Assembly: GCA_947445775.1 (NCBI GenBank)
Contig: CANFEB010000002.1
Location: 1 to 64,000 of the forward strand
DNA: 64,000 nucleotides
Source of the DNA: Oligoflexales bacterium
Lineage (GTDB): Bacteria > Bdellovibrionota_B > Oligoflexia > Oligoflexales > RGVZ01
Reading direction: 5' to 3'
Each line of letters opens with the position of its first letter. Within the stretch, counting starts at the first letter, position 1. Below the pieces are notes generated by a model. That model was not told where the DNA came from and ran no database searches. It worked only from the letters and a program-made list of their open reading frames with translations. Both the position numbers and the translations under genes were made by a program. Shown in pieces: positions 6,891-61,529 of this stretch.

Positions 6891-7061
6891 GGTGGCTCCC
6901 TTGTTTGTGCGGACTTGTTTTGTAACGGACTCTGCAAAATCTGCAAATTCAGGGCCAGCATTAGGAGCCCGTGTTCTATGACTAACATGCCGTAAAAACA
7001 GGTGTATTTTCTCGCTAAATCTTAGAGCATTAGGGGGCTGTCGCATTAGTGGTCACTTTGA

Positions 7062-8231
7062 TCAGCGAAACGCGGCGATGCCGGTGATGTTTTCACCAAT
7101 GACTAGGCGGTGAATGTCTTCTGTGCCTTCGTAGGTATTCACCGTTTCCAGGTTCATCATGTGACGGATCACCGAGTACTCGTCGATGATGCCGTTGCCG
7201 CCGAGCATGTCGCGGGCATCGCGGGCAATTTCCAGCGCGATTTTGCAGTTGTTCATTTTGCCCAGGGACACCTGATGCGGCAGTAGAGTACCTGTTTCTT
7301 TGATGCGGCCCATCTGTAGAGCCAGCAATTGGCCTTTGGTGATTTCCTGGACCATTTTTGCCAGTTTTGCTTGCGCCAATTGATGGCCGGCCAAAGGTTT
7401 GCCGTCGAAGATGGTCCGGTTTTTCGCGTAATGCAAGGCCGTGTGGTAGCAGGAGTTGGCAGCGCCCAGAACGCCCCAGGCAATGCCGTAACGGGCTTGG
7501 GTTAGGCAGCCGAGTGGCCCCTTGAGTCCTTCGACGTTGGGCAGAATGTTTTCTGCCGGGACGACGCAATCTTGAAAGTGCAGTTCGGAGGTGACGCTGA
7601 CGCGCAGCGAGAACTTACCCTTCATGGTTGTGGTGGTGAAGCCGGGAGTGCCTTTTTCAACGATAAAGCCGCGGACCTTGCCGTCAAGCTTTGCCCAAAC
7701 AATCGCGACATCGGCAATGCAGCCGTTGGTGATCCACATTTTATTGCCGTTGAGTTTATAGCCGCCAGAAACTTTTTCGGCTTTGGTCTGCATCGACCCC
7801 GGATTGGAACCGGCATCGGGTTCCGTCAGGCCAAAACAGCCGATCATCTGACCGCTGGCAAGTTGTGGCAGGTATTTTTCTTTTTGTTGGTCCGATCCGT
7901 AGGCATGGATCGGATACATGACGAGAGATCCCTGGACTGAGCAAAAGGAACGGATTCCTGAATCGCCCCTTTCAAGTTCTTGCATGACGAGGCCATAGGC
8001 AACTTGGCCCAGTCCCGCGCAGCCGTATCCTTTGATTGTCGACCCCAGGAGGCCAAGCTCAGCAAACTGCGGGACCAATTCCATCGGGAAATGCTCGTCG
8101 CGGTTGGCCTTCATCAGGAGCGGCTCGATTTTTTCGGAAACGAAATTCCGGACCGACTGACGAACGAGAAGTTCTTCCTCGGTGAAAAGGCTGTCGATGT
8201 TCATGTAGTCGAGGGATTCGTAGTTGGCCAT
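7062..8231 (-). CDS. gcdH: Glutaryl-CoA dehydrogenase
   Basis: A 389-residue FAD acyl-CoA dehydrogenase. Segments match the glutaryl-CoA dehydrogenase subgroup rather than straight-chain enzymes: SVQGSLVMYPIHAYGS, GCFGLTEPDAGSNPGSM and GKFSLRVSVTSELHF. The catalytic base is Glu368 in NTYEGTEDIH. The enzyme dehydrogenates and decarboxylates glutaryl-CoA to crotonyl-CoA in lysine and tryptophan breakdown; the fadAB-type genes at 30.6-34.3 kb could take the product further. AGGAG precedes the start. It is divergent from the E1 gene across 98 bp. Confidence 0.9.
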   Translation of the reverse strand: MANYESLDYMNIDSLFTEEELLVRQSVRNFVSEKIEPLLMKANRDEHFPMELVPQFAELGLLGSTIKGYGCAGLGQVAYGLVMQELERGDSGIRSFCSVQGSLVMYPIHAYGSDQQKEKYLPQLASGQMIGCFGLTEPDAGSNPGSMQTKAEKVSGGYKLNGNKMWITNGCIADVAIVWAKLDGKVRGFIVEKGTPGFTTTTMKGKFSLRVSVTSELHFQDCVVPAENILPNVEGLKGPLGCLTQARYGIAWGVLGAANSCYHTALHYAKNRTIFDGKPLAGHQLAQAKLAKMVQEITKGQLLALQMGRIKETGTLLPHQVSLGKMNNCKIALEIARDARDMLGGNGIIDEYSVIRHMMNLETVNTYEGTEDIHRLVIGENITGIAAFR

Positions 8232-8329
8232 GGCAGGGAACTCCTGTTTTTGTATTGCTCGGCTTTTTCTTGCCCGTCTGCGAAGGGTCAGAGTAGTGTG
8301 CAGCTCTCACTAAACTAGACAGGGCAATC

Positions 8330-10573
8330 ATGTTTAATCGAGCTGAAGTCATTGATCAAAACTTTTCTCGCTACGTCCGCGAGTTGCACCTGCCCCAGGC
8401 CCACTCCGGGACGTCTTTGGCTGAATCCGGCCTGCGCCCCTCCGAGGTCATGGACCTCTTTGAATCCCAGATGGTCAGCCGGCACCTGGACCTGATTGCC
8501 CGCATTTTGAAGAACAATAACCTATGTTACTACACGATTGGCAGCTCCGGCCATGAGGGCAATGCAGCTTTGGGCAAGGTTTTCCGACTAACGGACATGG
8601 CCTTTCTACACTACCGCAGTGGCGCCTTTATGATCCAGAGGTCGAAGCAACTACCTGGAACTACTCCTGTTTTTGACACCATGCTGTCCTTTTTCGCCTC
8701 CACAGAAGAACCAATCGCCGGCGGACGCCACAAGGTTTTTGGTAGCCTGCCGCTTCTAGTCCCGCCCCAGACCAGCACCATTGCCTCACATTTGCCCAAG
8801 GCCGTTGGTGCCGCCTTGTCGATCCACCGGGCTCAAGCCATGGGAATTGCCTCACCGATGCCGCCCGATGCCATCGTGTCGTGTTCCTTTGGGGACGCCT
8901 CGTCCAATCATTCGACCGCCATTGGAGCCATTAATATGGCGTCCTGGGTGGCCTTTCAAAACATTGCCGTGCCGCTGGTTTTTGTCTGTGAAGACAATGG
9001 GATAGGGATTTCTGTGGCCACTCCAGGTCATTGGGTCGAACGCAATTTTGCCCATCGTCCAGCCATTAAATATATTTCGGCCGACGGTCTGAGCCTGCTC
9101 GATACCTTTCAAAAAGGGCTTCTGGCCGAACAGTATTGTCGCGAGCGGCGCAGACCGGTTTTCCTGCACGTGAAAACCGTACGCCTGATGGGCCACGCCG
9201 GGTCGGATATGGAGGCGACTTACAAGTCGTTTCCCCAGATCGAAGAGGTCGAATTCCAGGATCCACTGCTGCATTCGGCACGGATCGTTTTGGAAAACGG
9301 TTTGGCCTCGGCTGATGAAATTATCAATATGTACGAACAGGTACGCTCACGGATTCGACATGTGTCGGATGCGGCGATTTTGCGGCCGCAGTTGTCAGAC
9401 CCCGTCGAGGTGATGTCTACCATCACGGCTTGCGTCAATAAGCGCGTGGCTCCGCCGGTCCCGTCCGAGGCGGCACGGGAGCGTGGATTTGGCAGTTCCG
9501 ATTGGGGCAAATCAAAAACTCCGCTGCACATGGCCAAGCTTATTAATTTGGGTTTGCACGATATTTTGCTGCGCTACGAAAATACGGTCATTTTTGGCGA
9601 AGACGTCGCGCAAAAGGGCGGAGTCTACAACGTCACAGACGGGTTGTTCAAAAAATTTGGCGCGCGTCGGGTTTTCAATTCCTTGCTGGATGAACAGTCG
9701 ATCATTGGCACCGGAATTGGTATGGCCCACAACGGATTCGTGCCGATTCCAGAGATTCAATTTTTGGCGTATTTTCATAACGCAGAAGATCAGATTCGCG
9801 GTGAAGCAGCGACTCTGCCATTTTTCTCCCGCGGGCAGTTCACCAACCCAATGGTGCTGCGCATGGCCGGCTTGGCTTATCAAAAGGGTTTTGGCGGGCA
9901 TTTTCACAACGACAACTCCCTGGCAGTTTTGCGCGACATTCCCGGGCTCATAATAGCTGTGCCGTCGAATGGCGCCGATGCCGTCAAGATGATGCGTGCG
10001 TGTGTGCGCGAGGCTTATGAAAACGGTCGCATCGTGGTTTTTATCGAACCAATTGCGTTGTACATGACTCGGGATTTGAACGTCGAAGGCGACAAGCTCT
10101 GGTCAGCCACTTATCCAGATCCAGATGAAGAAATTGCGGTGGGAGATTTTGGGGTCTACCGGTCATACGTGGGCGATGCTACGGCGGATTTGACCATCCT
10201 CACTTACGGCAATGGCTATTTTTATTCGCGCCAGGCCACGGAAGTTTTGGTCAATGAACACCACAAGAAAGTCAAAGTGATCGACCTGCGTTGGATCGCT
10301 CCCGTTGACATGGACAAGGTCGTCAAGGAAATCGGATCTTCTAAGAAAGTTCTGGTTGTCGAAGAATGCCGCAAAACCGGGTCATTCAGTGAATACCTTG
10401 TCAGTGCGCTGGTCGAGAAAATGGATTTGTTGCCCAAGATTAAGGTGGTCGCTGCGGACGACTGCTTTATTCCCCTTGGCCAGGCGTCGGCCGCGGGGTT
10501 GCCAAAAAAAGAAGAGATTTTGGCGGCAGCGCTTCAAATGTTTAACTCCAAAAAAATCCCCCTCATCAAGTAA
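8330..10573 (+). CDS. Fused alpha/beta E1 component of 2-oxoacid dehydrogenase
   Basis: A 747-residue thiamine-diphosphate enzyme in which alpha and beta E1 chains are joined. The alpha part (to about residue 380) has the TPP motif starting at GDASSNH (188-194) and closing at EDNGIG with Asn223. The beta part begins near residue 400 (LHMAKLINLGLHDILLRYENTVIFGEDV) and continues to the C-terminal transketolase domain. Such proteins usually decarboxylate branched-chain 2-oxoacids and pass the acyl group to lipoyl-E2, but no E2 or E3 gene is here. It is followed after six bases by a FabD-like acyltransferase gene. Confidence 0.87.
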   Translation: MFNRAEVIDQNFSRYVRELHLPQAHSGTSLAESGLRPSEVMDLFESQMVSRHLDLIARILKNNNLCYYTIGSSGHEGNAALGKVFRLTDMAFLHYRSGAFMIQRSKQLPGTTPVFDTMLSFFASTEEPIAGGRHKVFGSLPLLVPPQTSTIASHLPKAVGAALSIHRAQAMGIASPMPPDAIVSCSFGDASSNHSTAIGAINMASWVAFQNIAVPLVFVCEDNGIGISVATPGHWVERNFAHRPAIKYISADGLSLLDTFQKGLLAEQYCRERRRPVFLHVKTVRLMGHAGSDMEATYKSFPQIEEVEFQDPLLHSARIVLENGLASADEIINMYEQVRSRIRHVSDAAILRPQLSDPVEVMSTITACVNKRVAPPVPSEAARERGFGSSDWGKSKTPLHMAKLINLGLHDILLRYENTVIFGEDVAQKGGVYNVTDGLFKKFGARRVFNSLLDEQSIIGTGIGMAHNGFVPIPEIQFLAYFHNAEDQIRGEAATLPFFSRGQFTNPMVLRMAGLAYQKGFGGHFHNDNSLAVLRDIPGLIIAVPSNGADAVKMMRACVREAYENGRIVVFIEPIALYMTRDLNVEGDKLWSATYPDPDEEIAVGDFGVYRSYVGDATADLTILTYGNGYFYSRQATEVLVNEHHKKVKVIDLRWIAPVDMDKVVKEIGSSKKVLVVEECRKTGSFSEYLVSALVEKMDLLPKIKVVAADDCFIPLGQASAAGLPKKEEILAAALQMFNSKKIPLIK

Positions 10574-10579
10574 GAGGCT

Positions 10580-11599
10580 ATGGTTGCAATGAAGAAAAAA
10601 GAACGCATTGTCGTCATTTGCCCGGGGCGGGGTTCTTATACCAGCGAGACGCTGGGGTATTTGAAAAAACATCGCCCGAATATCGCTGATTTCATCGCTG
10701 ACATTGATCAGCGTCGATCCAAATTATCTGAACCCACGATTTCCGAATTGGACAATGCGGCAACCTTCAGCCCCAGCTTGCACACCAAGGGCGAGAACGC
10801 GTCGACTTTGATTTATGCGTGTTCCTATGCTGATTTTCAGGCGATTGACCGCGAAAAGTACGAGGTCGTTGCGGTCACCGGAAATTCCATGGGCTGGTAT
10901 TTGGCCCTTGGGTTTGCCGGGGCACTCGATTGGGCGGGCAGTTTTGAGGTGATCAACACCATGGGCTCGATGATGAAGGGCAAGATCATCGGTGGCCAGT
11001 TGATTTATCCTGCGATGAATGGCGACTGGCAAAGAAGCCAGGAACTGCAGGACACGATCGCGGCGACGATTGAACGGGCCCGTGCCTCGGGAGGCAACGT
11101 TTACCCGTCGATTCATCTGGGCGGTTATGCGGTGATTGGCGGCGACAGCATCGGATTGAATTACTTGATGAAAAACCTTCCGAAAATCGAGCATTATCCG
11201 TTTCAATTGATCAACCACGCAGCGTTTCACACGCCTCTATTAAAACAGACGTCAGAACGTGCGATGAAGACGATTTCGCCGGAAATTTTTGGGCGTCCGA
11301 AGATTCCCATGATCGATGGGCGCGGACAGATTTGGCAACCGTGGAGCACGGAAGTTGAAGGCTTGTACCGCTACACCCTCGATCGCCAAGTGGTCGAGAC
11401 CTATGATTTTACGAAGGCCGTCACGGTCGCTTTGAAGGAGTTCGCTCCGGACAAGTTGTTTCTGCTGGGGCCTGGAAACAGCCTTGGCGGAGCGATTGGG
11501 CAAGTTCTTGTCGCCAACTCATGGCAGGGGATTGCCAACAAGGCGGATTTCTCCGCCCGTCAGAAATCGAACCCATTTTTGATCTCGATGGGGCTTTAG
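10580..11599 (+). CDS. FabD-like acyltransferase lacking the malonyl-binding arginine
   Basis: A 339-residue protein of the FabD acyltransferase fold. The nucleophile elbow is GNSMGWY with Ser103 and the catalytic His is His217 in AFHTPLL. Aligned without gaps to FabD (GHSLGEYSAL...), the arginine 25 residues after the serine, which holds the malonyl carboxylate, is Met128. The acyl group moved is therefore probably uncharged, not malonyl. Coupling to the upstream E1 gene (six-base gap) suggests that 2-oxoacid-derived acyl groups are the substrate, for example for branched lipid or polyketide priming. The last point is inference. ATG 10589 is an alternative start. Confidence 0.75.
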   Translation: MVAMKKKERIVVICPGRGSYTSETLGYLKKHRPNIADFIADIDQRRSKLSEPTISELDNAATFSPSLHTKGENASTLIYACSYADFQAIDREKYEVVAVTGNSMGWYLALGFAGALDWAGSFEVINTMGSMMKGKIIGGQLIYPAMNGDWQRSQELQDTIAATIERARASGGNVYPSIHLGGYAVIGGDSIGLNYLMKNLPKIEHYPFQLINHAAFHTPLLKQTSERAMKTISPEIFGRPKIPMIDGRGQIWQPWSTEVEGLYRYTLDRQVVETYDFTKAVTVALKEFAPDKLFLLGPGNSLGGAIGQVLVANSWQGIANKADFSARQKSNPFLISMGL

Positions 11600-11620: not shown

Positions 11621-11806
11621 TCAGCCTTCGAAATCGCGGTCCATGACAGTTTTGCGCTTGTCAGCTTGGGCACGTTCGATGGCGCGAGCGCATTCACGCT
11701 CGACAACCTTGGACAGGGCGTCCATGGCGGTCGATGATGTATTCATGCTGGCGCGGTCTTTGATGAGTTTTTTTACTTTGCTTGCAACCACCAATACTTC
11801 GCTCAT
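11621..11806 (-). CDS. Bacterial histone-fold protein
   Basis: A 61-residue single-domain histone-fold protein, like the abundant bacterial histone of Bdellovibrio (Bd0055). The order is a short basic helix with SKVKKLIKD, a TSSTAMDALSKVVERECARAIERA central helix (split here by function, not sequence), and the loop RKTVMDRDF that in archaeal and bacterial histones pairs with the opposite chain and touches DNA. The start at 11806 has GGGAG upstream; the in-frame extension to 11974 is implausible. TATACT at 11835-11840 could be its -10. It should dimerise, coat DNA and be a chromatin protein. It stands alone between convergent and divergent genes. Confidence 0.85.
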   Translation of the reverse strand: MSEVLVVASKVKKLIKDRASMNTSSTAMDALSKVVERECARAIERAQADKRKTVMDRDFEG

Positions 11807-12023
11807 GATGTAACTCCCTTTAAGTTTGACGGTCAGTATAATGATTTTTGGGCATAGTTGGTAGTGCCTTGAGTGGCAAATAAGAAAGCTGTGCCAAAAA
11901 TAGGGTGAAGCGGAGTCCCGGGGTGTTTGGAACAACCGCTTCTGAGTGTTATGATTCCAGAGCTGTAAATCCAATAACTTCTAATTGGATATGAACATGA
12001 TTTTCAACCCGCCGAGGTTTTTT

Positions 12024-12926
12024 ATGATGCGTGCCCTCAAATTGGCGCTTTGTGTTGCTCCGCTTTTGATGCATTTGGCTGCTTGCGCGGCCGCCCGCAC
12101 AGCCGGTTGGGACACGCCAGCTATGACGGGCAAGGAAGCCGGGGCCGAGGTCGCCGACAAGGCAGTGGTCAGTAAGAAAAAAGCTGAGGCGATCCTCTTA
12201 TGGAAAAAGCGGATAAATCAAGTCGATTTGGAAAAATCCCTAAAGTTATTTGAAGAAGTAGCCAAACAAAGTCCCGACGATGCCGAGGTGCTGGTTTATT
12301 TGTGTCGGGGCCACTATTTTTTAGCGGATGGGCATCTTACCGACACAGCAATGAAAAAAGCGACGTGGGAAGCCGGAATAGCGTGGGGTGAGCGTGCTCT
12401 GGCCAGCAACCTAGACTTTCGCACGCAGGTGACAACCGGGGGTAAGAAAGTTGAAGAGGCATTGGATTCTTTGACTGTGGAGCAGGTGCCGGCTTTGTAT
12501 TGGACTGCGTCGAACCTGGGCAAGTGGGCGCGCCTGTCAGGGTTGCCGACCTTGTTAGGCAATAAAAATCGCATCCGCCTCATGATCGAGCGCGTTGAGA
12601 AGCTGCAACCCGATTTTTTTCATGGCGCGGCTCCGCGTTATTGGGGTGCTTATTACGCCGTGGCTCCGTCGTTTGCCGGAGGCAGCCTGCCGAAGAGCGA
12701 AGAGAACTTCAACAGGTCTCTTAAAATGGCCAACAACTATTTTGGTACCCATGTTCTGATCGCCGATACCTTGGCTCCTAAAAAGGGCGACAAGGCGATG
12801 TTCAAAAAACACCTTGAATTCGTGATCAACGGCAAACCGGAAGTTCTTCCAGACCTTGTCCCCGAGCAGATTGTCGAGCAGCGCAAGGCCAAAAAAATGC
12901 TGGAAAAAATGGCGGAGTACTTTTGA
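12024..12926 (+). CDS. TRAP transporter TatT component lipoprotein
   Basis: A 300-residue TatT (TRAP-associated TPR) family lipoprotein. ATG 12024 follows GAGG and begins a signal peptide ending in the lipobox LAAC; the earlier TTG at 11985 is rejected. TPR-like helices run through the protein (for example SLKLFEEVAKQSPDDAEVLV). TatT trimers in the periplasm are thought to receive ligand from or cooperate with the TRAP binding protein; its gene starts one base after this stop codon. Confidence 0.85.
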   Translation: MMRALKLALCVAPLLMHLAACAAARTAGWDTPAMTGKEAGAEVADKAVVSKKKAEAILLWKKRINQVDLEKSLKLFEEVAKQSPDDAEVLVYLCRGHYFLADGHLTDTAMKKATWEAGIAWGERALASNLDFRTQVTTGGKKVEEALDSLTVEQVPALYWTASNLGKWARLSGLPTLLGNKNRIRLMIERVEKLQPDFFHGAAPRYWGAYYAVAPSFAGGSLPKSEENFNRSLKMANNYFGTHVLIADTLAPKKGDKAMFKKHLEFVINGKPEVLPDLVPEQIVEQRKAKKMLEKMAEYF

Positions 12927-12927
12927 C

Positions 12928-13992
12928 ATGAATTATAAATCTTTCAGATCCCGCTGCCATGGGATTGCAGTGGCAATGGGCGTCGCATCATTTGCCGCTT
13001 CATTCGCGATGCCCGGAACGTCCCAAGCTGGGGCAAAGGTGGTGGTGAAGCTGGCGACAGTGGCACCCACCGGGACTCCCTGGGCTGATTCATTGGATCA
13101 GATCAAAAAGCGCATCGAAAGCGAGAGCAAGGGGAACATTCAAGTCAAGGCCTACATGGGTGGGCAGCTTGGGGGTGAACTTGAAATCACCCAGGGCATC
13201 AAACGTGGTCGCATTGAAGGCGGCGGCATCACGGCCGGTGCTCTGGCCAGCGTGATTCCGGAGCTTGATGTTCTGGAAATTCCGTATCTGTTCGAATCCT
13301 ACGAAGAAGCTGACTACATCCTTGATGAGCATTTATACGAACCGTTTAAGAAGATTTTTGCAAATAAGGGCTTTGTTCTGGCCTCGTGGGCCGAAAACGG
13401 CTGGCGCAATATCGGCACCAAAAAAAATGTGATTCGCAAACCATCCGATCTGAAGGGGCTCAAGGTCCGTTCCCAGGAAAGCAAAGCGCACCTGGCCTTC
13501 TGGAAAAGGGTGGGAGCAAATCCCGTGCCGATTTCAATGCCCGAGACATTGACTGCGTTGCAGACAGGCCTGGTGGATGGTTTTGACAATACGGCCCTGC
13601 TGACGTTGTCGGCCGAATGGCATACGGCTATCAAACATTTTTCGGTGACCGAGCACATCTATCAGTCGGCTGCGATCCTCTATAGCAAGAAATTCTGGGA
13701 CAAGATTTCTGCAGAAGACCAAAAGATCATTTATGGAAACGGCAACCAGCTGGCGATCGAAAGTCGCGCTGCTGTGCGTGCAATTGGTCAAGAGCTTATC
13801 GGGGTTTTGCAGACTTCCGGCATCAAGATCGAAACGCTGACGGAATCTGAAAAGGTCGAATTTCGGAAGTCGGTGGATGGTTTGGCGGATGAGATTGTGA
13901 AGGTGGTTGGGGGCGATGCCCGCCGAATTTACGACGCCGTTCTTGAGGGAAAAAAACAATTTAAAGCGAAAAAATCAGCCGGAAAAAAATAA
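12928..13992 (+). CDS. dctP: TRAP transporter solute-binding protein DctP
   Basis: A 354-residue periplasmic TRAP solute receptor. ATG 12928 begins a signal peptide ending in TSQAGA near residue 35; then come KLATVAPTGTPWADSLDQIKK and the family core GLKVRSQESKAHLAFWKRVGANPVPI, whose arginine in the VRSQE region is where DctP proteins bind a substrate carboxylate. The ligand is unknown. The C-terminus is lysine-rich. It is cotranscribed with TatT upstream and DctQ, whose start overlaps its stop by one base. Confidence 0.92.
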   Translation: MNYKSFRSRCHGIAVAMGVASFAASFAMPGTSQAGAKVVVKLATVAPTGTPWADSLDQIKKRIESESKGNIQVKAYMGGQLGGELEITQGIKRGRIEGGGITAGALASVIPELDVLEIPYLFESYEEADYILDEHLYEPFKKIFANKGFVLASWAENGWRNIGTKKNVIRKPSDLKGLKVRSQESKAHLAFWKRVGANPVPISMPETLTALQTGLVDGFDNTALLTLSAEWHTAIKHFSVTEHIYQSAAILYSKKFWDKISAEDQKIIYGNGNQLAIESRAAVRAIGQELIGVLQTSGIKIETLTESEKVEFRKSVDGLADEIVKVVGGDARRIYDAVLEGKKQFKAKKSAGKK

Positions 13993-14492
13993 TGATGGCC
14001 TCATTGAACAAGTTTTTTAGTCTGGTCACAACCGGCGAACGGTGGCTTGCCGGCCTTGCGATTGGGACCATGGCGGCGCTCTTGTGTGCCGATGTTTTTT
14101 TTCGCGAAGTTTTCCACCACAGTTTGCCTTGGGCTCAGAAACTGAGCCTGCACTTGATGATCATCTCCGGTAGCCTTGGGGTCAGTTTGGCGTCATCGAG
14201 CGGCGGCCACTTGCGCCCAGAGGTTGGGGACCATGTTTTGCCGAAGGCGATTTTGCCTGCGGTGGTGGTCTTGCGGGAGCTTTGCGTTGCCGCGTTTTGC
14301 TTTTTTTATTCTTGGATCGCCCTTGGCTACGCGCGCCAAAGCCATGAGTCCGGTGATGTGAATGTCATCACTGGCGTGCCTCTCTGGGTCATTCAAGGGA
14401 TTTTTCCGGCCGTGTTTTTGGTTATGGCTATGAAACACCTGTTTTTCGCCTTGATACCAGCGGCGCGCCCCGTTCGCGCGGGAGTCCACTGA
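13992..14492 (+). CDS. dctQ: TRAP transporter small permease DctQ
   Basis: A 166-residue inner-membrane protein with four hydrophobic helices, the usual topology and size of DctQ. Typical features are RWLAGLAIGTMAALLCADVFFREVF and the FFYSWIALGYARQS segment. It partners with DctM in sodium-driven uptake. ATG overlaps the dctP stop codon and its own stop overlaps the dctM start, so the operon is translationally coupled. Confidence 0.9.
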   Translation: MMASLNKFFSLVTTGERWLAGLAIGTMAALLCADVFFREVFHHSLPWAQKLSLHLMIISGSLGVSLASSSGGHLRPEVGDHVLPKAILPAVVVLRELCVAAFCFFYSWIALGYARQSHESGDVNVITGVPLWVIQGIFPAVFLVMAMKHLFFALIPAARPVRAGVH

Positions 14493-15760
14493 TGTCGCTG
14501 GGTTATTCGCTCATTTTGTTTTTGATTGTCTCCCTCGTGGCGGGACTGCCGCTGTTTGTGATTTTGGGTATGGTCGCAACCCTTTGTTATACCTTTCAAG
14601 GTAACGCTGACCTGGTAGATGTCATCGAAGATATCTATTACGCGGCGGACAAAGAGGTGCTTCTTGCCATTCCGCTCTTCATCCTTGCCGGAAACCTGAT
14701 GACCCACGGTGCGATTGCGCGCCGTTTGATCCGCATCGCCGCATCGATCACAGCACCGTTGCCAGCTGGTCTGGGTGTGGCGGCGGTTTTATCGTGCACC
14801 CTGTTTGCTGCTATTTCTGGATCATCCCCCGTCACGTTGATTGCGATAGGAACCATGATGTACCCGGCCCTGGTCGAGGCCGGCTACTCCCGGGGCTTTT
14901 CTGTTGGACTATTGGCATCGGCCGGAACCTTGGGAATCATCATTCCGCCTAGTATTCCGATGATCATATTTTCCATCATGGCCAGCGTACCAGTGACCGA
15001 TATGTTCATTGCTGGGATTTTTCCTGGGCTGCTTTTATCGGCAATTTTGATGTGTTATGCGATGTATCATGGCCGCAAGATGCCGCGTGGCCGGTGGAGC
15101 ACGCCGGAGTTTCTGGCTGCTCTAAAATCCGGATTCCTTTCGCTCCTAGTCCCGTTGATTATTTTGGGGGGCATTTACTCTGGGTTTTTTACGGCCACGG
15201 AGGCCGCCGCCATTGCCGTTGCCGTGGCATTGATCATCGAACTTGGAATTTATCGTGAACTCAAGTTGCCGTTGGTTTGGAAATCGATGACGGATACGAC
15301 GGAAATGCTGGGTATGATTTTTTTCATCCTGCTGTTTGCCGTTAGCTTCAATAAATACCTCATTATCGAGCAGATCCCCCAAAATCTAGTCCAAGATATG
15401 TCTAGTGTGATTACCTCGCGTTATGGTTTTTTGATTGTTGTGAACATCCTGCTTTTGATCGCTGGATGTTTCATGGACATTATGAGCGCGATTTTGGTCT
15501 TTGCACCACTCTTGACCCCAATGGCCCTTCATTATGGGATCCATCCCGTTCATTTTGGGATCATCATGATCGTCAATCTTGAGATCGGTTACTTGACGCC
15601 TCCCCTCGGCATCAATTTGTTTGTGGCGGCAGCTGCCTTTAAACTGCCCCTTGGCGAGGTCATTCGGTCTTCCATTGTCCCGGCCTTGATGCTCCTTGGA
15701 GGCCTTGTCGTCGTAACTTTCTGGCCAGAGCTGAGCCTGTTTTTGGTTCCGGGAAAATAG
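14492..15760 (+). CDS. dctM: TRAP transporter large permease DctM
   Basis: A 422-residue membrane protein, the ion-translocating subunit of the TRAP transporter. It has about a dozen hydrophobic helices and the family signatures LAIPLFILAGNLM, AAISGSSPVTLIAIGTMM, LLASAGTLGIIIPPSIPMI and NLEIGYLTPPLGINLF. The start overlaps the dctQ stop (ATGA-type). It completes TatT-DctP-DctQ-DctM. Confidence 0.93.
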   Translation: MSLGYSLILFLIVSLVAGLPLFVILGMVATLCYTFQGNADLVDVIEDIYYAADKEVLLAIPLFILAGNLMTHGAIARRLIRIAASITAPLPAGLGVAAVLSCTLFAAISGSSPVTLIAIGTMMYPALVEAGYSRGFSVGLLASAGTLGIIIPPSIPMIIFSIMASVPVTDMFIAGIFPGLLLSAILMCYAMYHGRKMPRGRWSTPEFLAALKSGFLSLLVPLIILGGIYSGFFTATEAAAIAVAVALIIELGIYRELKLPLVWKSMTDTTEMLGMIFFILLFAVSFNKYLIIEQIPQNLVQDMSSVITSRYGFLIVVNILLLIAGCFMDIMSAILVFAPLLTPMALHYGIHPVHFGIIMIVNLEIGYLTPPLGINLFVAAAAFKLPLGEVIRSSIVPALMLLGGLVVVTFWPELSLFLVPGK

Positions 15761-18086: not shown

Positions 18087-19469
18087 TCAAACGATCTTAC
18101 GGTTTTGCAGAATCTTCAAGAAAGACCGGCTTCGGATCTCATCGAGGGAAAGCCCCGTGCGCAGGGCCTCTGCCTCAGTGATGGCGCCGCAGCTTATTCC
18201 GCGCAGGAAAAAATTCAGCAGGCCCTGGCCGGTGGCCGCATCGTCAAAAACGTCCCCCAGAAGTGTCGCCTTGGCGGCCTTCTCCACAAAGCCCTTCAGA
18301 CGCGCTGAAACGGAATCAAAACTTTCCAGGAAAAAAGCGTACATGGCTGCATAGCGAACAGGAATTTGCGCCGGATGCAAATCCCAGCCCTGGTAATAGC
18401 CGGTTTCGAGAGAATGGCGGATGTGCTTGTAGCTTAGTTGCCAAGCCCGGTAAACAACCTCACGGTTCTCGTCCGCCTGTTGCTTGGTCAACGACGAGCC
18501 CGGAGCCGCACGATGCGGACCGACTGGCATGACGTTGGTGGCGCCATCGGAAATCATGACCTCGGTGGTCGCAAGGCTGACCTGCAGGACATGCTTGGCA
18601 AAGTCGCAGACGGGATTGGCCATGGTTTGAAACGAAGCGGTGATCTGGCAACCGGCCGTGTAATCGTATGTCCCGAAATGCGCGCCGACGCAGCGGCCGT
18701 CACCAGCATCAACAATCTCGCGAAGTGGCGTCCTGCCAGTGTCGTCGATGATGATTTGGGGCATTTCCACCATGATTTCGAACTTGAGGGAATTTTTAGG
18801 CAGGCCGCGTTTTTTTTCAGCCTCGGTCAGAAGCTCCGCAAGGGCGCGTGACTGTGCTGCTACCGTGATTTTCGGTAGGGTGATGACAAAGTTTTCAGGC
18901 AGTTTGTTGCCGGAGCTTTGCAGGAGGGTATCGAGAAAAATATCGAGGGTCCGGATACTGCGATGGATGTTTTCCTGGTTGAATGGCTTGATGCGGATTC
19001 CAATGAAGGGCGGAAGCGTTCCTTCCTTCATGCCCTGGGCTACTTCTTTGGCGGCACTTGCTGCGTGGCCGTCTTCTTCGGCATCAGGACGGTTGCCATA
19101 GCCGTCTTCAAAGTCGATGCGAAAATCCTCCACGGCCTCGGCCTTGATCTTGCCGGATACACGCTCGTAGACCTTCTGCCACAAGTCATGTCCAAATTGT
19201 TCCTGATTGATTCCTAGTCCGCGCGCGAGGGTCGCCGCATCGGGAGCGTATTCGGCCATGGTCCGCAGGGATGTCTCGCCCATTTTTCGTGCGGTCTGCG
19301 CGGTGAACAACTGAGCCCCGCCGTAAACGGTATGCACCGCCTGGCGTCCTTCTGGAACTCCCGGATAGCGGTGGTTGAATTTCAAGTTGGCGTCTTTAAG
19401 GCGCGCTTTGACGGAATCTGCGACGGCGGAAAAAAGCATCGCATTGTTACTGCTGTTGGAGTTTGGCAT
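18087..19469 (-). CDS. DUF6986 aldolase-like protein of purine catabolism
   Basis: A 460-residue protein related to the HpcH/HpaI aldolase and citrate-lyase-beta superfamily (DUF6986, once labelled PEP kinase). Metal-site type segments are FRIDFEDGYGNR and FEIMVEMPQIIID, and AHFGTYDYTAGC is conserved in the group. It is the last gene of the urate operon. Allantoate breakdown gives glyoxylate, the substrate of related malate-synthase-type enzymes, so a C-C bond reaction on glyoxylate or a purine-derived acid is a reasonable inference; the true reaction is not established. Confidence 0.72.
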   Translation of the reverse strand: MPNSNSSNNAMLFSAVADSVKARLKDANLKFNHRYPGVPEGRQAVHTVYGGAQLFTAQTARKMGETSLRTMAEYAPDAATLARGLGINQEQFGHDLWQKVYERVSGKIKAEAVEDFRIDFEDGYGNRPDAEEDGHAASAAKEVAQGMKEGTLPPFIGIRIKPFNQENIHRSIRTLDIFLDTLLQSSGNKLPENFVITLPKITVAAQSRALAELLTEAEKKRGLPKNSLKFEIMVEMPQIIIDDTGRTPLREIVDAGDGRCVGAHFGTYDYTAGCQITASFQTMANPVCDFAKHVLQVSLATTEVMISDGATNVMPVGPHRAAPGSSLTKQQADENREVVYRAWQLSYKHIRHSLETGYYQGWDLHPAQIPVRYAAMYAFFLESFDSVSARLKGFVEKAAKATLLGDVFDDAATGQGLLNFFLRGISCGAITEAEALRTGLSLDEIRSRSFLKILQNRKIV

Positions 19470-19505
19470 TTGAATTCTCCTGGTTGAATTAGGGGATTTT
19501 GTTTT

Positions 19506-19865
19506 TCAGTTGCCCCGGTAAGTCGAATAACCAAAAGGGCTGAGCAGTAACGGCACATGATGATGGCGCGTGGCATCGGTGATGTTAAAGGTTATTTCAA
19601 CTGTCGGATAAAACGATGTTTCACCCCGTGATTTGAAGTATTCGCCGGTGATAAAAATCAGTTTGTAGGTGCCCGTTGCAATCTCCTGGGACACGGGCAG
19701 CAAATCCTCGACCCGGCCATCACTGTTGGTTTTGCTTTTTGCGATCGGCTGAAAAACGTTGTGGCGCAATTCATCCAGCCTGACATGAATGTCTGAGGCA
19801 GGCAGGCCGGTGCTCAGGTCAAGGACATGGGTTGTGATGGGGGAGCGTGATGATGGTTTACTCAT
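19506..19865 (-). CDS. uraH: 5-hydroxyisourate hydrolase
   Basis: A 119-residue transthyretin-related HIU hydrolase. It opens 5-hydroxyisourate, the urate oxidase product, to OHCU. The N-terminal ITTHVLDLSTG carries His13, and HHHVPLLLSPFGYSTYRG at the end carries further active-site residues. The last residue is Asn (YRGN) where the family signature is YRGS. No signal peptide is seen, so it acts in the cytoplasm. Its start overlaps the uraD stop by four bases. Confidence 0.92.
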   Translation of the reverse strand: MSKPSSRSPITTHVLDLSTGLPASDIHVRLDELRHNVFQPIAKSKTNSDGRVEDLLPVSQEIATGTYKLIFITGEYFKSRGETSFYPTVEITFNITDATRHHHVPLLLSPFGYSTYRGN

Positions 19866-20401
19866 GATCGAAAAAGTTTCTCCAGGCGCAGTCGGGTGAT
19901 TTTTGCTTGCTCGTTCATGGCAATTTGCATTTCTGTGCCGGAATCATTGGTCATTCGTGAATCTAAGTTCGTCAACATTTCTGACGCAGATTTTCCCGTC
20001 GCACAAATAAGAAAAATGTGACCAAATTTTATTTCGTATTCAGCATTGCCAATTGCAAGGCGATTTATGGTTTCCTCCGAAGCGGCTTGGGCGCCCTGCT
20101 GCTCTTCACCGGCCCAGCTTGAGGTTGCGGCATATTTTTTTCGCATTGAATCCAAATCCCCAATCCGGGGATGATGCCCGAAGGCTTCCAGGCAATCTGA
20201 TCTTTCGAGATTTTTCCAATGGCTCTGGGCCGCATCAAAAATTTCTTCCATAGACTTGAAGGGGCGCCCGGCCATCATGCGTTCCGCCCATCGCTGGCTG
20301 CCACAGCAGCGCATCAGGGAATCGATGGCATCCTGGCGTGGCAGACCATTGAACCCAGCCAAGGTCGTGCCCGCATCATTGATGTTCACCTGGGACTTCA
20401 C
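19862..20401 (-). CDS. uraD: OHCU decarboxylase
   Basis: A 179-residue 2-oxo-4-hydroxy-4-carboxy-5-ureidoimidazoline decarboxylase, which makes S-allantoin. The catalytic His is in FGHHPRIGD (His77), and YEIKFGHIFLICATGKSASEML matches the C-terminal family block. I choose GTG 20401, which overlaps the allantoicase stop in a GTGA junction; the next option is GTG 20389. Residues further upstream in frame are arginine-rich antisense-like sequence and are rejected. Confidence 0.85.
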   Translation of the reverse strand: MKSQVNINDAGTTLAGFNGLPRQDAIDSLMRCCGSQRWAERMMAGRPFKSMEEIFDAAQSHWKNLERSDCLEAFGHHPRIGDLDSMRKKYAATSSWAGEEQQGAQAASEETINRLAIGNAEYEIKFGHIFLICATGKSASEMLTNLDSRMTNDSGTEMQIAMNEQAKITRLRLEKLFRS

Positions 20402-21567
20402 TGGGACGGCCGCCCCCAGATCCGTAACCGGCTGACGCCGCCATCGGGTGAAATGTTGAGGCGGATGTAGTCCACGGGATTGTTGCCTGATTTGATTTCT
20501 TTCGCGTCGAACTCGTGGGCCGTGTCGGCTCTGAGTTTTGTTTTCCGGAGGGCTTCCGTCCAAACCAAGGTCGTTGTGGAGGGCGCGAAGCCCTTGGTTT
20601 CCGTGGCCTCAAAAGCAGAAATGTCCCGCAGGTCGCAGGGCAGCAAATCTCGTGCCGGATAACGGCAGGTTTCCACCGAACAGGAATCCGGAAAGTTGCC
20701 TTTATAATGGTGGGTGTCGATTTCTATTTTGTCGATGATGCTCGTGCATCCCAGTCGCACCACGATCCAATCAGATCCCTCTCCACGCCGACGGCGCGTT
20801 TCCCAGCCGCCGCCCATGTTTTCAGCGCGTCCTGGTTTGATCAAATTATCTTTTGGCCCAAAGTAGGAGTCGCTCGATGCTAAAACAGTCGCGCCATTAG
20901 CGGCCGCTGCAACATCGATTGATTTGCCGGTGGCGGCCGCAGTTGCCGCAAGTTTTTTCCAATCGGGCATAACATCGCCAAAGGCACGTAATCTGGCAAC
21001 GCCGCCGTCCGGAAAGATGCGCAGGCGCAGGTGGGTCCAGCGAGTTTTCGTCGTGGGATCGTCGCCGCTGGCATGGGTGACTGGGCTGACTTGGCTGATT
21101 TGACTGACTTGGCTGACAGGTATGATGTTGTGGCTGCCCCCCTGAAGTTTCGTCTTGGGAACGATGGTGACCCAAGGGGCGCTGTTTTTTTGAAGTTCGT
21201 TCAAGGAGTCGCTGGTTGCCGCAATAGCTTCAATGGATGCGTACTCGGGAAAATTACCGGTAAAAAATGCCGTATCGATGTCAAACCCTTGAATGGTGCC
21301 CGGTAGTCCAAGGCGAATGATGCAGTGGTCGTGGCCCGCAGTGCGCTTGCGGCGGCTCTCCCATCCGTCCATCCATTTTCCGTTGTCGGTGTATTTGTCT
21401 GCGATAAAAACGGGAGCGGCGACTTTCAGCAGATTTTCCTTCTCCGCAAAAAAATCATCGGTAGCGAATAGCACGCTGCCGCCGACATCCTCGCAGGCCA
21501 GATCAATTTTATCAGCGAAGGGGATGTAAAAATTGGCCCCGGTGATGCTTGGTGTTTGATTCTGCAT
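20398..21567 (-). CDS. alc: Allantoicase
   Basis: A 389-residue allantoicase with the family's two internal repeats: ADKIDLACEDVGGSVLFATDDFFA...WESRRKRTAGHDHCIIRLG near the N-terminus, and AAAANGATVLASSDSYFGPKDNLI...WETRRRRGEGSDWIVVRLG about 170 residues later. Each is a jelly-roll unit. It splits allantoate to ureidoglycolate and urea. ATG 21567 is used; an earlier ATG at 21612 is possible. It overlaps the allantoinase gene by 56 bp in another frame. Confidence 0.9.
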   Translation of the reverse strand: MQNQTPSITGANFYIPFADKIDLACEDVGGSVLFATDDFFAEKENLLKVAAPVFIADKYTDNGKWMDGWESRRKRTAGHDHCIIRLGLPGTIQGFDIDTAFFTGNFPEYASIEAIAATSDSLNELQKNSAPWVTIVPKTKLQGGSHNIIPVSQVSQISQVSPVTHASGDDPTTKTRWTHLRLRIFPDGGVARLRAFGDVMPDWKKLAATAAATGKSIDVAAAANGATVLASSDSYFGPKDNLIKPGRAENMGGGWETRRRRGEGSDWIVVRLGCTSIIDKIEIDTHHYKGNFPDSCSVETCRYPARDLLPCDLRDISAFEATETKGFAPSTTTLVWTEALRKTKLRADTAHEFDAKEIKSGNNPVDYIRLNISPDGGVSRLRIWGRPSQ

Positions 21568-22915
21568 TTTGGGTTGGACCCTTTCTTTGGTAGACCAATT
21601 GACCACGAACATACGTGGCTTCAACAACACCTGTCAGTGTCTTGCCCTCGTAGGGCGTTATTTTATGGCGGTGGCGGATGATTTCCCTGGTCAACGTAAA
21701 TTGACCCTCGGGATCCCAGACCACAAAGTCGGCGTCGTGACCCGGAGTTAGCGCCCCCTTGCGGCGATGCAGTCCGGTCAGGCGCGCCGTGCGGGCGCTC
21801 ATCCAGCCGACAAGATCGGTGATTTGATGGCCAGCGCGGCGTGCCTCGGTCCAGACGGTGCTCAGGCTGAATTGCAGGCCGGCGATCCCGCCCCAGGCGT
21901 GACCAAAATCGCCGTCTTCGATTAGTTTAAGTTGTGGTGTGCAGGGTGAATGGTCCGATACCACGCAGTCGATAAGGCCCGATTTGAGGGCCGTCCATAA
22001 CTTGCGCTGGTTGGCGGCCTCGCGGATTGGTGGCGCGCATTTGAACCACGTGGCTCCATCGGCGATTTCTTCGGAACTGAGGGTCAGGTAGTGCGGACAG
22101 GTCTCAACCGTCAGCTTGATTCCGGCGTCTTTCGCCCGTGCAATATCATCAAGGGCATCTGCGGCGGACAAGTGTACGATGTGGACGCGGGTGCCGTGTT
22201 TTTTGGCAAGTTCGATCACCATCCGGATGGCTTCGACCTCCCATGATTGTGGGCGCGATGCCAAATAGTCGCGGTAATGGCGCGTGGTTCCAAGTTGTGG
22301 AGAGGCGCAGGCGCCCTCAAGTTCAGCGTGGACTAGAAGCGGCACGTCAAGGCTTGTCAAAATTGGCATGGCCCGTTCAAGGTCGGCCCGCGCTGCCATG
22401 GGAAATTCGTCAACACCCGAAGGGCAGGTGAAGGCTTTGAACCCCATGACGCCAGCGGCAACCATGGCTTCATATTCATTGGTGTTGCCAGGGATGACGC
22501 CACCCCACAACCCGTAATCGATTTGGCAACGGCCGTGGGCGGCATCCATTTTTGCTTGCATGCCCGCAAGGGTTGTCGTCGGCGGAATGCTGTTGAGCGG
22601 CATGTCGATCACGGTGGTGATTCCGCCGGCAGCCGCTGCCAATGTTGCCGTTTCGAAGCCTTCCCATTCGGTACGACCAGGCTCGTTGATATGGGCGTGG
22701 GCTTCGACAATGCCGGGCATGATGACCAGATTGCCGGCGTCGTAAATTTCTTGCGGGGCGAAATGACGAAGGGCGGCGCATTCACCGTGAATTTCGATGG
22801 AGGCAATTTTTCCGTCGCGAATGACTAGAGTAGCCGGGTGCGGAGCATCGCCGGCAGCCGTGATGACACGTTGACTGCGAACGGCGAAGATTTTTTGGGA
22901 GCCGGTTTCCATCAT
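21512..22915 (-). CDS. allB: Allantoinase
   Basis: A 467-residue amidohydrolase-fold allantoinase that opens allantoin to allantoate. The binuclear metal site is visible: HAH (His73, His75) in EAHAHINEPG, the carboxylated lysine Lys160 (GFKAFTCPSG), then HAELE, HIVHLS and SDHSPC. The segment GRTEWEGFETATLAAAAGG is typical of allantoinases over dihydropyrimidinases. The start follows the puuD stop by five bases. The C-terminal 18 codons overlap the alc gene. Confidence 0.93.
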   Translation of the reverse strand: MMETGSQKIFAVRSQRVITAAGDAPHPATLVIRDGKIASIEIHGECAALRHFAPQEIYDAGNLVIMPGIVEAHAHINEPGRTEWEGFETATLAAAAGGITTVIDMPLNSIPPTTTLAGMQAKMDAAHGRCQIDYGLWGGVIPGNTNEYEAMVAAGVMGFKAFTCPSGVDEFPMAARADLERAMPILTSLDVPLLVHAELEGACASPQLGTTRHYRDYLASRPQSWEVEAIRMVIELAKKHGTRVHIVHLSAADALDDIARAKDAGIKLTVETCPHYLTLSSEEIADGATWFKCAPPIREAANQRKLWTALKSGLIDCVVSDHSPCTPQLKLIEDGDFGHAWGGIAGLQFSLSTVWTEARRAGHQITDLVGWMSARTARLTGLHRRKGALTPGHDADFVVWDPEGQFTLTREIIRHRHKITPYEGKTLTGVVEATYVRGQLVYQRKGPTQNAESNTKHHRGQFLHPLR

Positions 22916-22920
22916 GAATA

Positions 22921-24147
22921 TTACTCGTGGCCGGCGTCAATATTTGCGTCTGCGCCGCCAATATTTGCGCCTGCGGCGAGCCAGCGCCCCAAAATCTGGC
23001 GCTCATCTGCGGTCATCTTGGTTTTGTTGCCAAAGGGCATGGTCGAAGAATCGACCACCCGGAATTTGATGCGTGCAGCGAAAGCCTTGATCGTGCGCGG
23101 GTCGTCAAACATCATGCCGCCGGGAGCCACCGTGAAAGTATCGTCCGTCGGATGTTGCGAATGGCAAGTGACGCATCGTTCCTGGATAATGCCCCTGACT
23201 TGGGCAAATTCTGGCGGAGGTAATTGGCCTGCCTGCCCCACGTTAAAAGACGGTTTTGGTGCGCAAATCCAGATGACAAGTGCCAACGCGCCGGTAACGG
23301 GAATACCCATCCAGGCCACGCGCCTTGTGCCAACGATTTGCATGTGACGGATTCCGCCGCCGATGAATGTCATCAGCAGCAGGGCCACCCAGTTCCAAGG
23401 GCCTGAATAGGTCGCAGGAAAATGATTGCTGATCATAATGAATAGGACGGGAAGGGTCATGTAACTGTTGTGGACGCTGCGACGTTTGGCAGCTTTGCCG
23501 AGGTTGAAGTCCGGCGTGCGGCCTTCTTTCGTCGCATCGATCATTTTTTGTTGGGCTGGAAGTATTCGCACCCAAACGTTGAGAACCATAATGGTGCCAA
23601 ACATGGCCCCGACATGCAGGAATGCCCCGCGCCCGGTGAATAGCTGGCTGAGCCACCACGAGATTCCAGCCGTTAGGACAAGGCACAGGGCCAGGGAAAA
23701 TCCGGCTTGGGACTTCCCAAGTTTAGAATTCCACAGCCAGTCGTAGAAAAACCACGTTACGGCCAGCACGGAAATGCCGATGGCCGATGCCTGGGCGTGA
23801 TTGAGGTTGGTTCGTGTCGGGTCGATCAAAAAGGCGGAATCAGACAAATAATAAACGACCGCCAAAAGGCCCATGCCGCTGAGCCAGGTAAATGCCGCCT
23901 CCCATTTGAACCAATGGAGGACATCCGGCATCGAGCCGGGACCGATTCGGCGTTTTTCGACCTGGTAGAAGCCGCCGCTGTGGCACATCCAGAGCTCGCC
24001 TTCGACCCCGTCGCGCGGTTTTTTTGGGGGTTCCAGGCTTTGGTCCAACCACATGAAATAAAAGGAACTACCAATCCAGGAAATTCCAGCAACGAGGTGG
24101 AACCAACGCAGAATAAGATTTAGCCATTCAGAAAAGTAAGAATTCAT
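22921..24147 (-). CDS. puuD: Membrane urate oxidase PuuD with C-terminal cytochrome c
   Basis: A 408-residue PuuD-type urate oxidase. The N-terminal 290 residues have about eight transmembrane helices starting with WFHLVAGISWIGSSFYF, and the C-terminal domain has a c-type heme site, CVTCH (325-329), with Met370 (TMPFG) as likely axial ligand. Unlike soluble uricase, electrons from urate would go to the respiratory chain. It is the first gene of a six-gene operon that runs to DUF6986. The divergent transporter starts 110 bp away. Confidence 0.93.
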   Translation of the reverse strand: MNSYFSEWLNLILRWFHLVAGISWIGSSFYFMWLDQSLEPPKKPRDGVEGELWMCHSGGFYQVEKRRIGPGSMPDVLHWFKWEAAFTWLSGMGLLAVVYYLSDSAFLIDPTRTNLNHAQASAIGISVLAVTWFFYDWLWNSKLGKSQAGFSLALCLVLTAGISWWLSQLFTGRGAFLHVGAMFGTIMVLNVWVRILPAQQKMIDATKEGRTPDFNLGKAAKRRSVHNSYMTLPVLFIMISNHFPATYSGPWNWVALLLMTFIGGGIRHMQIVGTRRVAWMGIPVTGALALVIWICAPKPSFNVGQAGQLPPPEFAQVRGIIQERCVTCHSQHPTDDTFTVAPGGMMFDDPRTIKAFAARIKFRVVDSSTMPFGNKTKMTADERQILGRWLAAGANIGGADANIDAGHE

Positions 24148-26765: not shown

Positions 26766-27783
26766 ATGGAAATTTTAGCCGCAAAAAAACTTTCCGACAC
26801 CGACTTAACCGCAGCCTTGTATAAGGCTATCGCCTCCGAACGCAGCCATGTCGCCGATTCGAACGCCTGCCTCATTGAAATCACGGCGCGTGACCTGCAC
26901 ACGCGACTGGGCGCCTCGTCACTTTTTGTTTATTTGACGCGTGATTTGAAGTTGTCGGAATCGTCAGCATCAAAACGCTGCGCCGCCGTCAGGGCCATTC
27001 GCCAGTTTCCAGAGATGTTGGGTCTCGTTCAATCTAGTCGACTGCACCTGTCAAATATTGCGCTGATCTCGCGCCACCTTGCGTTCGGTGGTTTATTTGT
27101 CGCAAGGCGGGGAAGCTCCGGCTCAAGAGGCGGACGGGCCAGATTTCGTGCTCGAGTCTGGGGCGTCCTCGTCGGGAACTGCGGTGGGATCTGGCGGCGG
27201 ATCTGGATCTGGCAACGTTGAAACAGCCCTGGGGATTCGCATGCATGTCACGCTTAATCCCGCCGCCGCCGCGGACTTTGAATATCTGGTTGGCGCGATG
27301 CCCGGAAAATCCCCGTCGGATATTTTGTCCCATGCTCTAAATGAGCTGCGCAAGCGTCGCGAGTTGGGCGCGGGCAAATCCCAGTCGGCGCGTCCGTCTG
27401 ACGACGGCACCAAAAGGACGCCTAAGTTTTCCCTTGCCAGCAGGTATATTCCAGCGGCGCTTCGGCGGGACGTTGCGCGACGGGATGGCCACCGCTGCAC
27501 CTATGTGGCCCTCGTTGAAAGTCGCTCTCATGGAGTTGAGATGACTGGTGCGGAAATACCCGGCGCGGTGATGACTGGCGCGGAGACTGCCAGATTTGAA
27601 ATTAACGGCGCGAGGCGCTGCGAAGCGATTCACCAACTAGAGTTTGACCATGTGAACCCGCGGGCATTTGGGGGACAGAACACTTTGGCGAATTTGCGCC
27701 TGCTTTGTCGCGCGCACAATAATTTGGCGGCGAAAGATCTGATGGGAAAAGAATTTATCGAGTCGCGCTATGGGCATGGCTGA
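26766..27783 (+). pseudogene. Degenerate DUF222-type HNH endonuclease
   Basis: Two overlapping reading frames make up one broken HNH endonuclease. Frame one (26766 to about 27075) encodes the helical DUF222-like N-terminus, including LSESSASKRCAAVRAIRQFPE. Frame two (from about 27079) encodes a Gly/Ser-rich linker, DILSHALNELRKRREL, and the HNH core RRDGHRC...LEFDHVNPRAFGGQNTLANLRLLCRAHN. A +1 shift near 27075 separates them, and the region between the helical part and the linker seems shortened. About 35 residues with repeated MTGAE units are inserted between the CTYV and RRC parts of the zinc site. Family members are multicopy in Bdellovibrio-like genomes. Sequencing error is an alternative for the shift. 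Confidence 0.7.
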
Positions 27784-27821
27784 GTTTCGGCCACCGGCCG
27801 GAGGTGACGGAACAGGAAAAA

Positions 27822-58175: not shown

Positions 58176-58211
58176 ACGGTCCCCATAATCACCTGAATTG
58201 GAGTGCAACCA

Positions 58212-61200: not shown

Positions 61201-61529
61201 GACTGCTAGAGGCCGACGAAAAATTGCGCGCGCAAATGTCTGCGGCAGTGATTGCTGCGGCAACTGGTGACGGGCTGGTGGTGGCGCCAAGCGACAACGA
61301 TTCTGCTGGCTGGAGTCAAAGCACTGAGATGCTGCAATACGCCGTGGCGCGCATGTGGCGCATGATGACCCAGTTGCATAAACTCGGAATCCGCTACGGG
61401 ATACAACTGGAAGGCCCATGGTGGTCAACTCCACGCTACAAGCATGCTTATGTGGAGCCCGTTAGTAATCCAAGTAGCCCGAGCGGCGCGAGCAGCGCCG
61501 GCGTTAATGTCCGTATTGTTCGGTTTTAA
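58212..61529 (+). CDS. Large exported protein with a C-terminal clan CD-like peptidase domain
   Basis: A 1105-residue protein with a signal peptide (cleavage after ASA near residue 31). Residues to about 500 are helical, 520-800 contain hydrophobic segments, and the last 320 have a caspase/gingipain-type layout: strand-plus-histidine MRIMTHGLPG (His853) and strand-plus-cysteine AVLFACLVGANM (Cys912), 59 residues apart, as in clan CD peptidases and DUF4347-like domains. The two-residue dyad is seen; the family assignment is inference. ATG 58212 has GGAG eight bases upstream; a GTG three codons earlier is rejected. It may be cotranscribed with ctaA. Confidence 0.6.
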   Translation: MVYRGLKPLFTGVLTLSVVVASALPASAARRQTTLNQESGSCPALDQILDEAEARNSDLAPHQAGKQDEFAPGVMAAFSECLVRGAVNDETAKGELRVALQSLSQRGLAAVHEIAPVVALINETGGASQASQQPSAAAASIFAANSMIQIAEASRLLDTRMGRLRAADARMAVAQFASEISRRGVRDSVDSADFIAHGQGIRILTTEIAGRVDEVAQLAAITSRRDMAASLTTRLRTFSRRSGDAPALNAPTLHAAAILDLEKLFEEANSQANTLEYSGINGQVERDAARNWSTAFDGRLMVVLKTVSPEAQSPAEAVEVWHAALRRANPEAIEAIEAGPGSSATRDAKVLIELAPDQMRSEVYETAEAIRRVLPEVRKSVEQSSGMIDRSMFGFTDDALAAIRQVELILEGVALRVRRSTNPDEILQVWQHRDMFKNIAVWTLEASASKSKTATRLAAVFSGAVSRMWQPDVMFLRMDDLHQLHGIIEDQNSENWVRAFVNRQMAVVYAQSALLLGEAIAVPFSGGASGAAMPATLHAIVVGLQVAGKATLIVTSSLNIADRYVQDGVKGLVNPASGLDALTIIMMLPRPIPGPVDAQSWFGRALQSGRNSAAGWMHEAGRFAVVGHTAFGAYQIAYADHIAATLRLQGYQTSAAEVRRQAFGHFAQAFLLGMVEWGEYRRGQALGGDHHSQVIAGTNPFKIFAKRLRNMVFPHKAAIDAYNSLAPVIGAPLAGAVSVLPAAAYIAYDYVIASEAMMYFYAGTDFGYFAHNRNQQEYPDLAAGESAVTFVGFDEADMLHAGAHAIDAHRLEMEKYGNRYFIYDYHSREEFLTKLASHASQHGPVKYMRIMTHGLPGKLYTADVQVSAGDGEDTAQRDGWIDAPWLRSNRDRIRGIAANGMAPGARAVLFACLVGANMDTAAPGLAEDSGDDFLRAFGETLLYQGGLIDASVRFLVGLDTVYGSMLNWAARDEVIRNGALQHQPVLPLNLFREGKSGLLEADEKLRAQMSAAVIAAATGDGLVVAPSDNDSAGWSQSTEMLQYAVARMWRMMTQLHKLGIRYGIQLEGPWWSTPRYKHAYVEPVSNPSSPSGASSAGVNVRIVRF

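Follow-up and report, generated by a model that had tools for sequence, protein, structure and literature searches.

A stand-alone gene for a probable HBb-type bacterial histone in an Oligoflexales genome

The gene and its signals

The window, that is, the whole 64,000-nucleotide stretch of Oligoflexales DNA analysed here, carries a 61-residue open reading frame (ORF) on the minus strand, flanked by plus-strand genes. The features of the locus are as follows.

10580..11599, plus strand: convergent neighbour, a 339-aa protein with no Pfam match; last gene of a block shared with the congener G003, 80% identical
11621..11806, minus strand: histone coding sequence, 61 aa, ATG at 11806, stop TGA at 11623-11621 (translation, phmmer, AlphaFold2 and Foldseek)
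11814..11818, minus strand: probable ribosome binding site GGGAG, ending 7 nt before the histone ATG
11835..11840, minus strand (11840-11835 read 5' to 3'): -10-like TATACT, without a convincing -35
11985..15760, plus strand: TRAP transporter operon (T-component, DctP, DctQ, DctM), diverging from the histone gene

The initial annotation placed a histone gene at 11621-11806 and left its strand unstated. The ORF is real and complete and belongs to the minus strand: MSEVLVVASKVKKLIKDRASMNTSSTAMDALSKVVERECARAIERAQADKRKTVMDRDFEG is the product translated from 11806 to 11621, and translation of the plus strand over the same interval gives no histone. Upstream of the start the sequence reads ...AAAGGGAGTTACATC-ATG, in which GGGAG bears out the proper ribosome site that had been claimed. 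The -10-like TATACT is also where it was said to be, but a promoter scan found no minus-strand sigma-70-like site (paired -35 and -10) upstream of the gene and, because no paired -35 is recognised, the hexamer is weak evidence only for a promoter. With a convergent neighbour on one side and a divergent operon on the other, the gene does stand alone. It occurs only once in the genome that carries it, and its GC content (0.527) agrees with that of the window (0.530) and of its neighbours, which argues against a chimaeric contig.

The histone gene is under purifying selection. Its differences from five relatives fall mostly at codon position 3 (11, 5 and 32 differences at positions 1, 2 and 3, respectively, in the comparison with G016), with dN at 0.14-0.21 and dS either saturated or 3.7. 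The frame is very short and is missing from close relatives, as might be expected of a chance ORF or a decayed gene. A chance ORF is contradicted by the match to the Bdellovibrio histone Bd0055 described below, by the single copy in the genome and by the excess of third-position substitutions; the strength of the homology, the intact frame, the ribosome site and the purifying selection weigh against both forms of this reading, the probability of which is negligible and which we count as already refuted by the pattern of conservation.

Relationship to Bd0055/HBb

The window protein is identical to Bd0055/HBb of Bdellovibrio bacteriovorus at 35 of 59 ungapped positions (59%), and in a phmmer search of the PDB Bd0055/HBb was matched at E=5e-17, with HLp of Leptospira (9qt0, 5e-5) and HTkC of Thermococcus (9f2c, 2e-4) far behind. 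The Pfam histone model, which covers archaeal and eukaryotic nucleosomal histones (PF00808), gave 17 bits against a curated cut-off of 21.4, and the NCBIfam archaeal histone model NF043032 gave 25.7 bits against a cut-off of 50. A search with histone models, proposed as a check at the outset, thus yields weak matches below the cut-offs, a result that counts against the assignment; the strong match is that of phmmer to Bd0055. Both SKVKKLIK and RKTVMDRDF, the motifs picked out in the initial annotation, are found in the translated product, and the resemblance to Bd0055 that it had judged by eye is substantiated by the identity, by an HBb-like predicted fold and by conservation of the functional residues. 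The protein has a pI of 9.4 and a net charge of +2.5, equal to that of Bd0055.

In a tree built on 61 columns, and hence of low resolution, the window protein lies among bacterial histones of Oligoflexales and Chlamydiota; support is 93/82 for the Oligoflexales group that holds it and 95/75 for its subgroup. Horizontal transfer from Chlamydiota was considered and set aside, as the window protein sits among Oligoflexales rows and 61 columns leave the deeper order unresolved. The closest of the Chlamydiota and Oligoflexales bacterial dimer histones (e.g. L003, L005, L007 and L108) are 75-82% identical to it, share the ending MDRDF(E) and have mostly the same subgroup residues, including a glutamate at position 38, although their gene neighbourhoods are unlike that of the window.

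That ending bears on the short acidic tail that had been singled out as a possible departure from the known histone. The tail is literally there (E60-G61, in DFEG), but it is an ordinary family ending: relatives finish in FE, FEE, FD, FES, FG and similar sequences, mostly no more than a few residues past D58 and often acidic. Since relatives end alike, neither a special C-terminal tail nor a difference from the known histone on this account can be upheld.

'Bacterial dimer' alpha3 histones, a class delimited on sequence, were published in 2023-2024 from Bdellovibrionota, Chlamydiota and others (PMC10627809, PMC11390915, PMC11317129). We are highly confident that the window protein belongs to this class, being of the HBb type and near Bd0055, and that it would act as a homodimeric DNA-bending nucleoid protein. 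The gene is a further member of an already published class, and no sequence feature clearly sets it apart.

Predicted fold and functional residues

AlphaFold2, given the window protein as a single chain with 32 related sequences, predicts three helices (alpha1 3-19, alpha2 25-48, alpha3 56-59) with a mean pLDDT of 89 and a pTM of 0.66. In a Foldseek search of the PDB, HBb chains took the first five places (probability 1.00, E about 5e-5, TM about 0.7), followed by HLp and HTkC (TM about 0.72-0.74) and then by nucleosomal histones. The moderate pTM and TM values are probably due to the modelling of a lone 61-residue chain without its dimer partner. The complete single histone fold that had been read from the sequence is thus also what the structure prediction gives, with HBb as its best match. 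At about four residues, the predicted alpha3 fits the alpha3 histones, in which this helix is truncated to a few residues (PMC11390915).

The main DNA contacts of HBb are N22, R57, S9, T53, T8, S24, K10, K12, K52 and K16, and its 'RD clamp', R51-D58, is supported by D49 (PMC11317129). Nine of the ten contacts (S9, K10, K12, K16, N22, S24, K52, T53 and R57) are identical in the window protein, as are both clamp residues and D49; the tenth, T8, is replaced by alanine, the commonest residue there in the family. The RKTxxxD motif is present as RKTVMDRD at residues 51-58, and so are the alpha1 lysines and the S9-K10 motif of the HBb-type class. In archaeal histones the position aligned with A48 holds a tetramerising histidine (PMC10627809). 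The window protein keeps A48, as does HBb, and judged from the sequence this residue in place of the histidine is consistent with a dimer that does not form tetramers.

Likeness to Bd0055/HBb (PDB 8FVX, 8FW7, 8CMP, 9EZZ, 9F0E) therefore extends from the single short histone fold and length class to the short alpha2, the one-turn alpha3, A48, the RD clamp with D49 and the net charge. The differences are T8 to A and I59 to F, both to the family consensus, and L38 to E, a feature of the subgroup; in addition, the window gene belongs to a different branch of the phylum from Bd0055, and congeners lack it. On sequence comparison, the change at L38 is the most substantial of these differences. L38 is a dimer-interface residue in HBb, and E38 could alter the dimer. 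It lies in the subgroup consensus VEREC and occurs in 28 of 110 entries (doublets counted twice), so that, being common to much of the subgroup, it is not peculiar to the window gene.

A second kind of alpha3 histone has to be weighed here. HLp, the face-to-face (FtF) histone of Leptospira perolatii (9QT0-9QT2), shares with the window protein the histone fold and a truncated alpha3, but forms a tetramer around which about 60 bp of DNA is wrapped (PMC12701072). If the window protein were of this type it would wrap DNA as tetramers, and both HLp and HTkC do have its fold, at the Foldseek scores given above, and detectable sequence similarity. HBb is nevertheless far closer in sequence (HLp is about 38% identical), and the window protein clusters with the bacterial dimers of Oligoflexales and Chlamydiota, a class reported to lack the FtF dimer-dimer residues (PMC11390915). 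An FtF assignment is very improbable, and a bacterial dimer of the HBb type is the preferred reading.

Proposed role in the nucleoid

By analogy with HBb, the window histone most likely acts in the nucleoid as a homodimer, bending DNA non-specifically. Two copies would pair by a histone handshake through alpha2, and the dimer would bind the minor-groove backbone of any DNA through L1 (N22, T23, S24), L2 (K52, T53), R57 and the alpha1 lysines (K10, K12, K16), held by the R51-D58 clamp. The bound dimer would then bend and compact the DNA as a nucleoid-associated protein alongside those of the HU/IHF family. The expectation of dimerisation, DNA bending and abundance derives from HBb, which binds the DNA backbone non-specifically and bends DNA (PMC11317129). 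An earlier structure of the same protein suggested a sheath on straight DNA (PMC10627809), so that the path of the DNA may be bent or straight across the whole class, the window member included. Five matches to the HU/IHF family in the window's genome make the histone one of several nucleoid proteins there.

Distribution and genomic context

A scan of genome contigs confirmed 228 genome stretches that encode relatives, the best 80 of them coming from Oligoflexales, Bacteriovoracaceae, other Bdellovibrionota, Chlamydiota, Planctomycetota and others, and a class-level sample gave a match in 16 of 58 genomes and 9 of 30 genera. Bacterial histones, described as rare in the initial annotation, are on these counts not rare in this lineage. 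The window's genome shares its family with G004, which carries a histone too. An alphaproteobacterial, Micavibrio-like host was considered and rejected, since the genome lacks GcrA and its relatives indicate Oligoflexales; a search of the assembly for 16S rRNA found none. No histone turned up in the three congeners G001-G003, which are 89-90% complete: a profile search to E<=1 returned only chance matches of 22-23 residues.

The flanking gene could be compared in one congener only, G003. The block at 7060-11599 is collinear there, at 77% DNA identity, and breaks off precisely with the stop codon of the 339-aa neighbour. Where the histone would be expected, G003 has a gene that encodes a GGKGGVGKS ATP-binding motif and looks ParA/MinD-like by eye; in the window's genome this gene is on another contig. 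A search of the three congeners for DctP gave nothing above the threshold used, and none of these genomes matches the DNA of the window between 15.7 and 26.7 kb. Since collinearity with G003 stops, DctP is missing at that threshold and this region is unmatched, the histone belongs to a stretch that is particular to the window's genome.

Absence from the sampled congeners suggests that the histone is dispensable in this genus, and its role in chromatin cannot be assumed to be major or essential. Together with the end of G003 synteny at the neighbour's stop codon, it makes the histone look accessory here. Bd0055, by contrast, seems to matter in B. bacteriovorus, where it is highly abundant and a deletion was not obtained (PMC10627809). 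The same absence, and the location in an unshared segment, could also point to a histone-fold protein whose role is local and specialised, for instance in gene regulation, in place of a general nucleoid protein. HBb, however, contacts the DNA backbone only (PMC11317129) and the same contacts are conserved in the window protein, while none of 26 related loci shares a gene neighbourhood with the window, which leaves no conserved neighbour to indicate a local partner and disqualifies the neighbourhood as a clue to partners. A local role is accordingly unlikely, and general DNA bending of the HBb kind is favoured. We would also give little credence to the bolder idea that in this genus the HBb-type histone is an accessory chromatin protein, horizontally exchanged or repeatedly lost, and that E38 gives the Oligoflexales/Chlamydiota subgroup a dimer/DNA geometry different from that of HBb.

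The window gene leaves the known mechanism of bacterial histones unchanged and adds a further Bdellovibrionota genome to the range of the class. It is useful chiefly for the natural contrast in presence and absence between its genome and the congeners, which may help to establish how dispensable bacterial histones are beside HU/IHF.

Other features of the window and related histones

An apparent purine/ureide breakdown cluster at 18087-24147 on the minus strand (a DUF6986 protein, allantoicase, an amidohydrolase that is likely an allantoinase, and urate oxidase) has no DNA match in the congeners. The region at about 26780-27785 has several, some near contig ends (G002 C9 and C31; G001 C61), which suggests a repeated gene or element. 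A 1108-aa ORF with a GTG start and no Pfam match lies at 58203-61529 on the plus strand.

Phage and plasmid collections gave no match for the window histone, and a phage or plasmid origin was rejected. At L127:566-730, one viral contig (IMGVR_UViG_3300022707_002644) codes for a fold that has 55% identity to the window histone; this could be a histone of a phage, or the contig could be bacterial and mis-sorted. The presence of a typical bacterial dimer histone on a contig titled Euryarchaeota archaeon (L076:540-713) probably reflects a binning or labelling error. In L053 and L069 an N-terminal Cys-rich domain (WRKCSSCKKEI...) precedes the histone fold, consistent with the published ZZ histones. 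Histone doublets have already been described, and many Bacteriovoracaceae loci (L028-L078, e.g. L028:5806-6180) encode single chains of about 132 aa in which two histone folds stand in tandem, with the pattern MESLIVISKVKKFIK...GKDFNLY...RKTVMDRDF; the second fold is closer to the window protein than the first.
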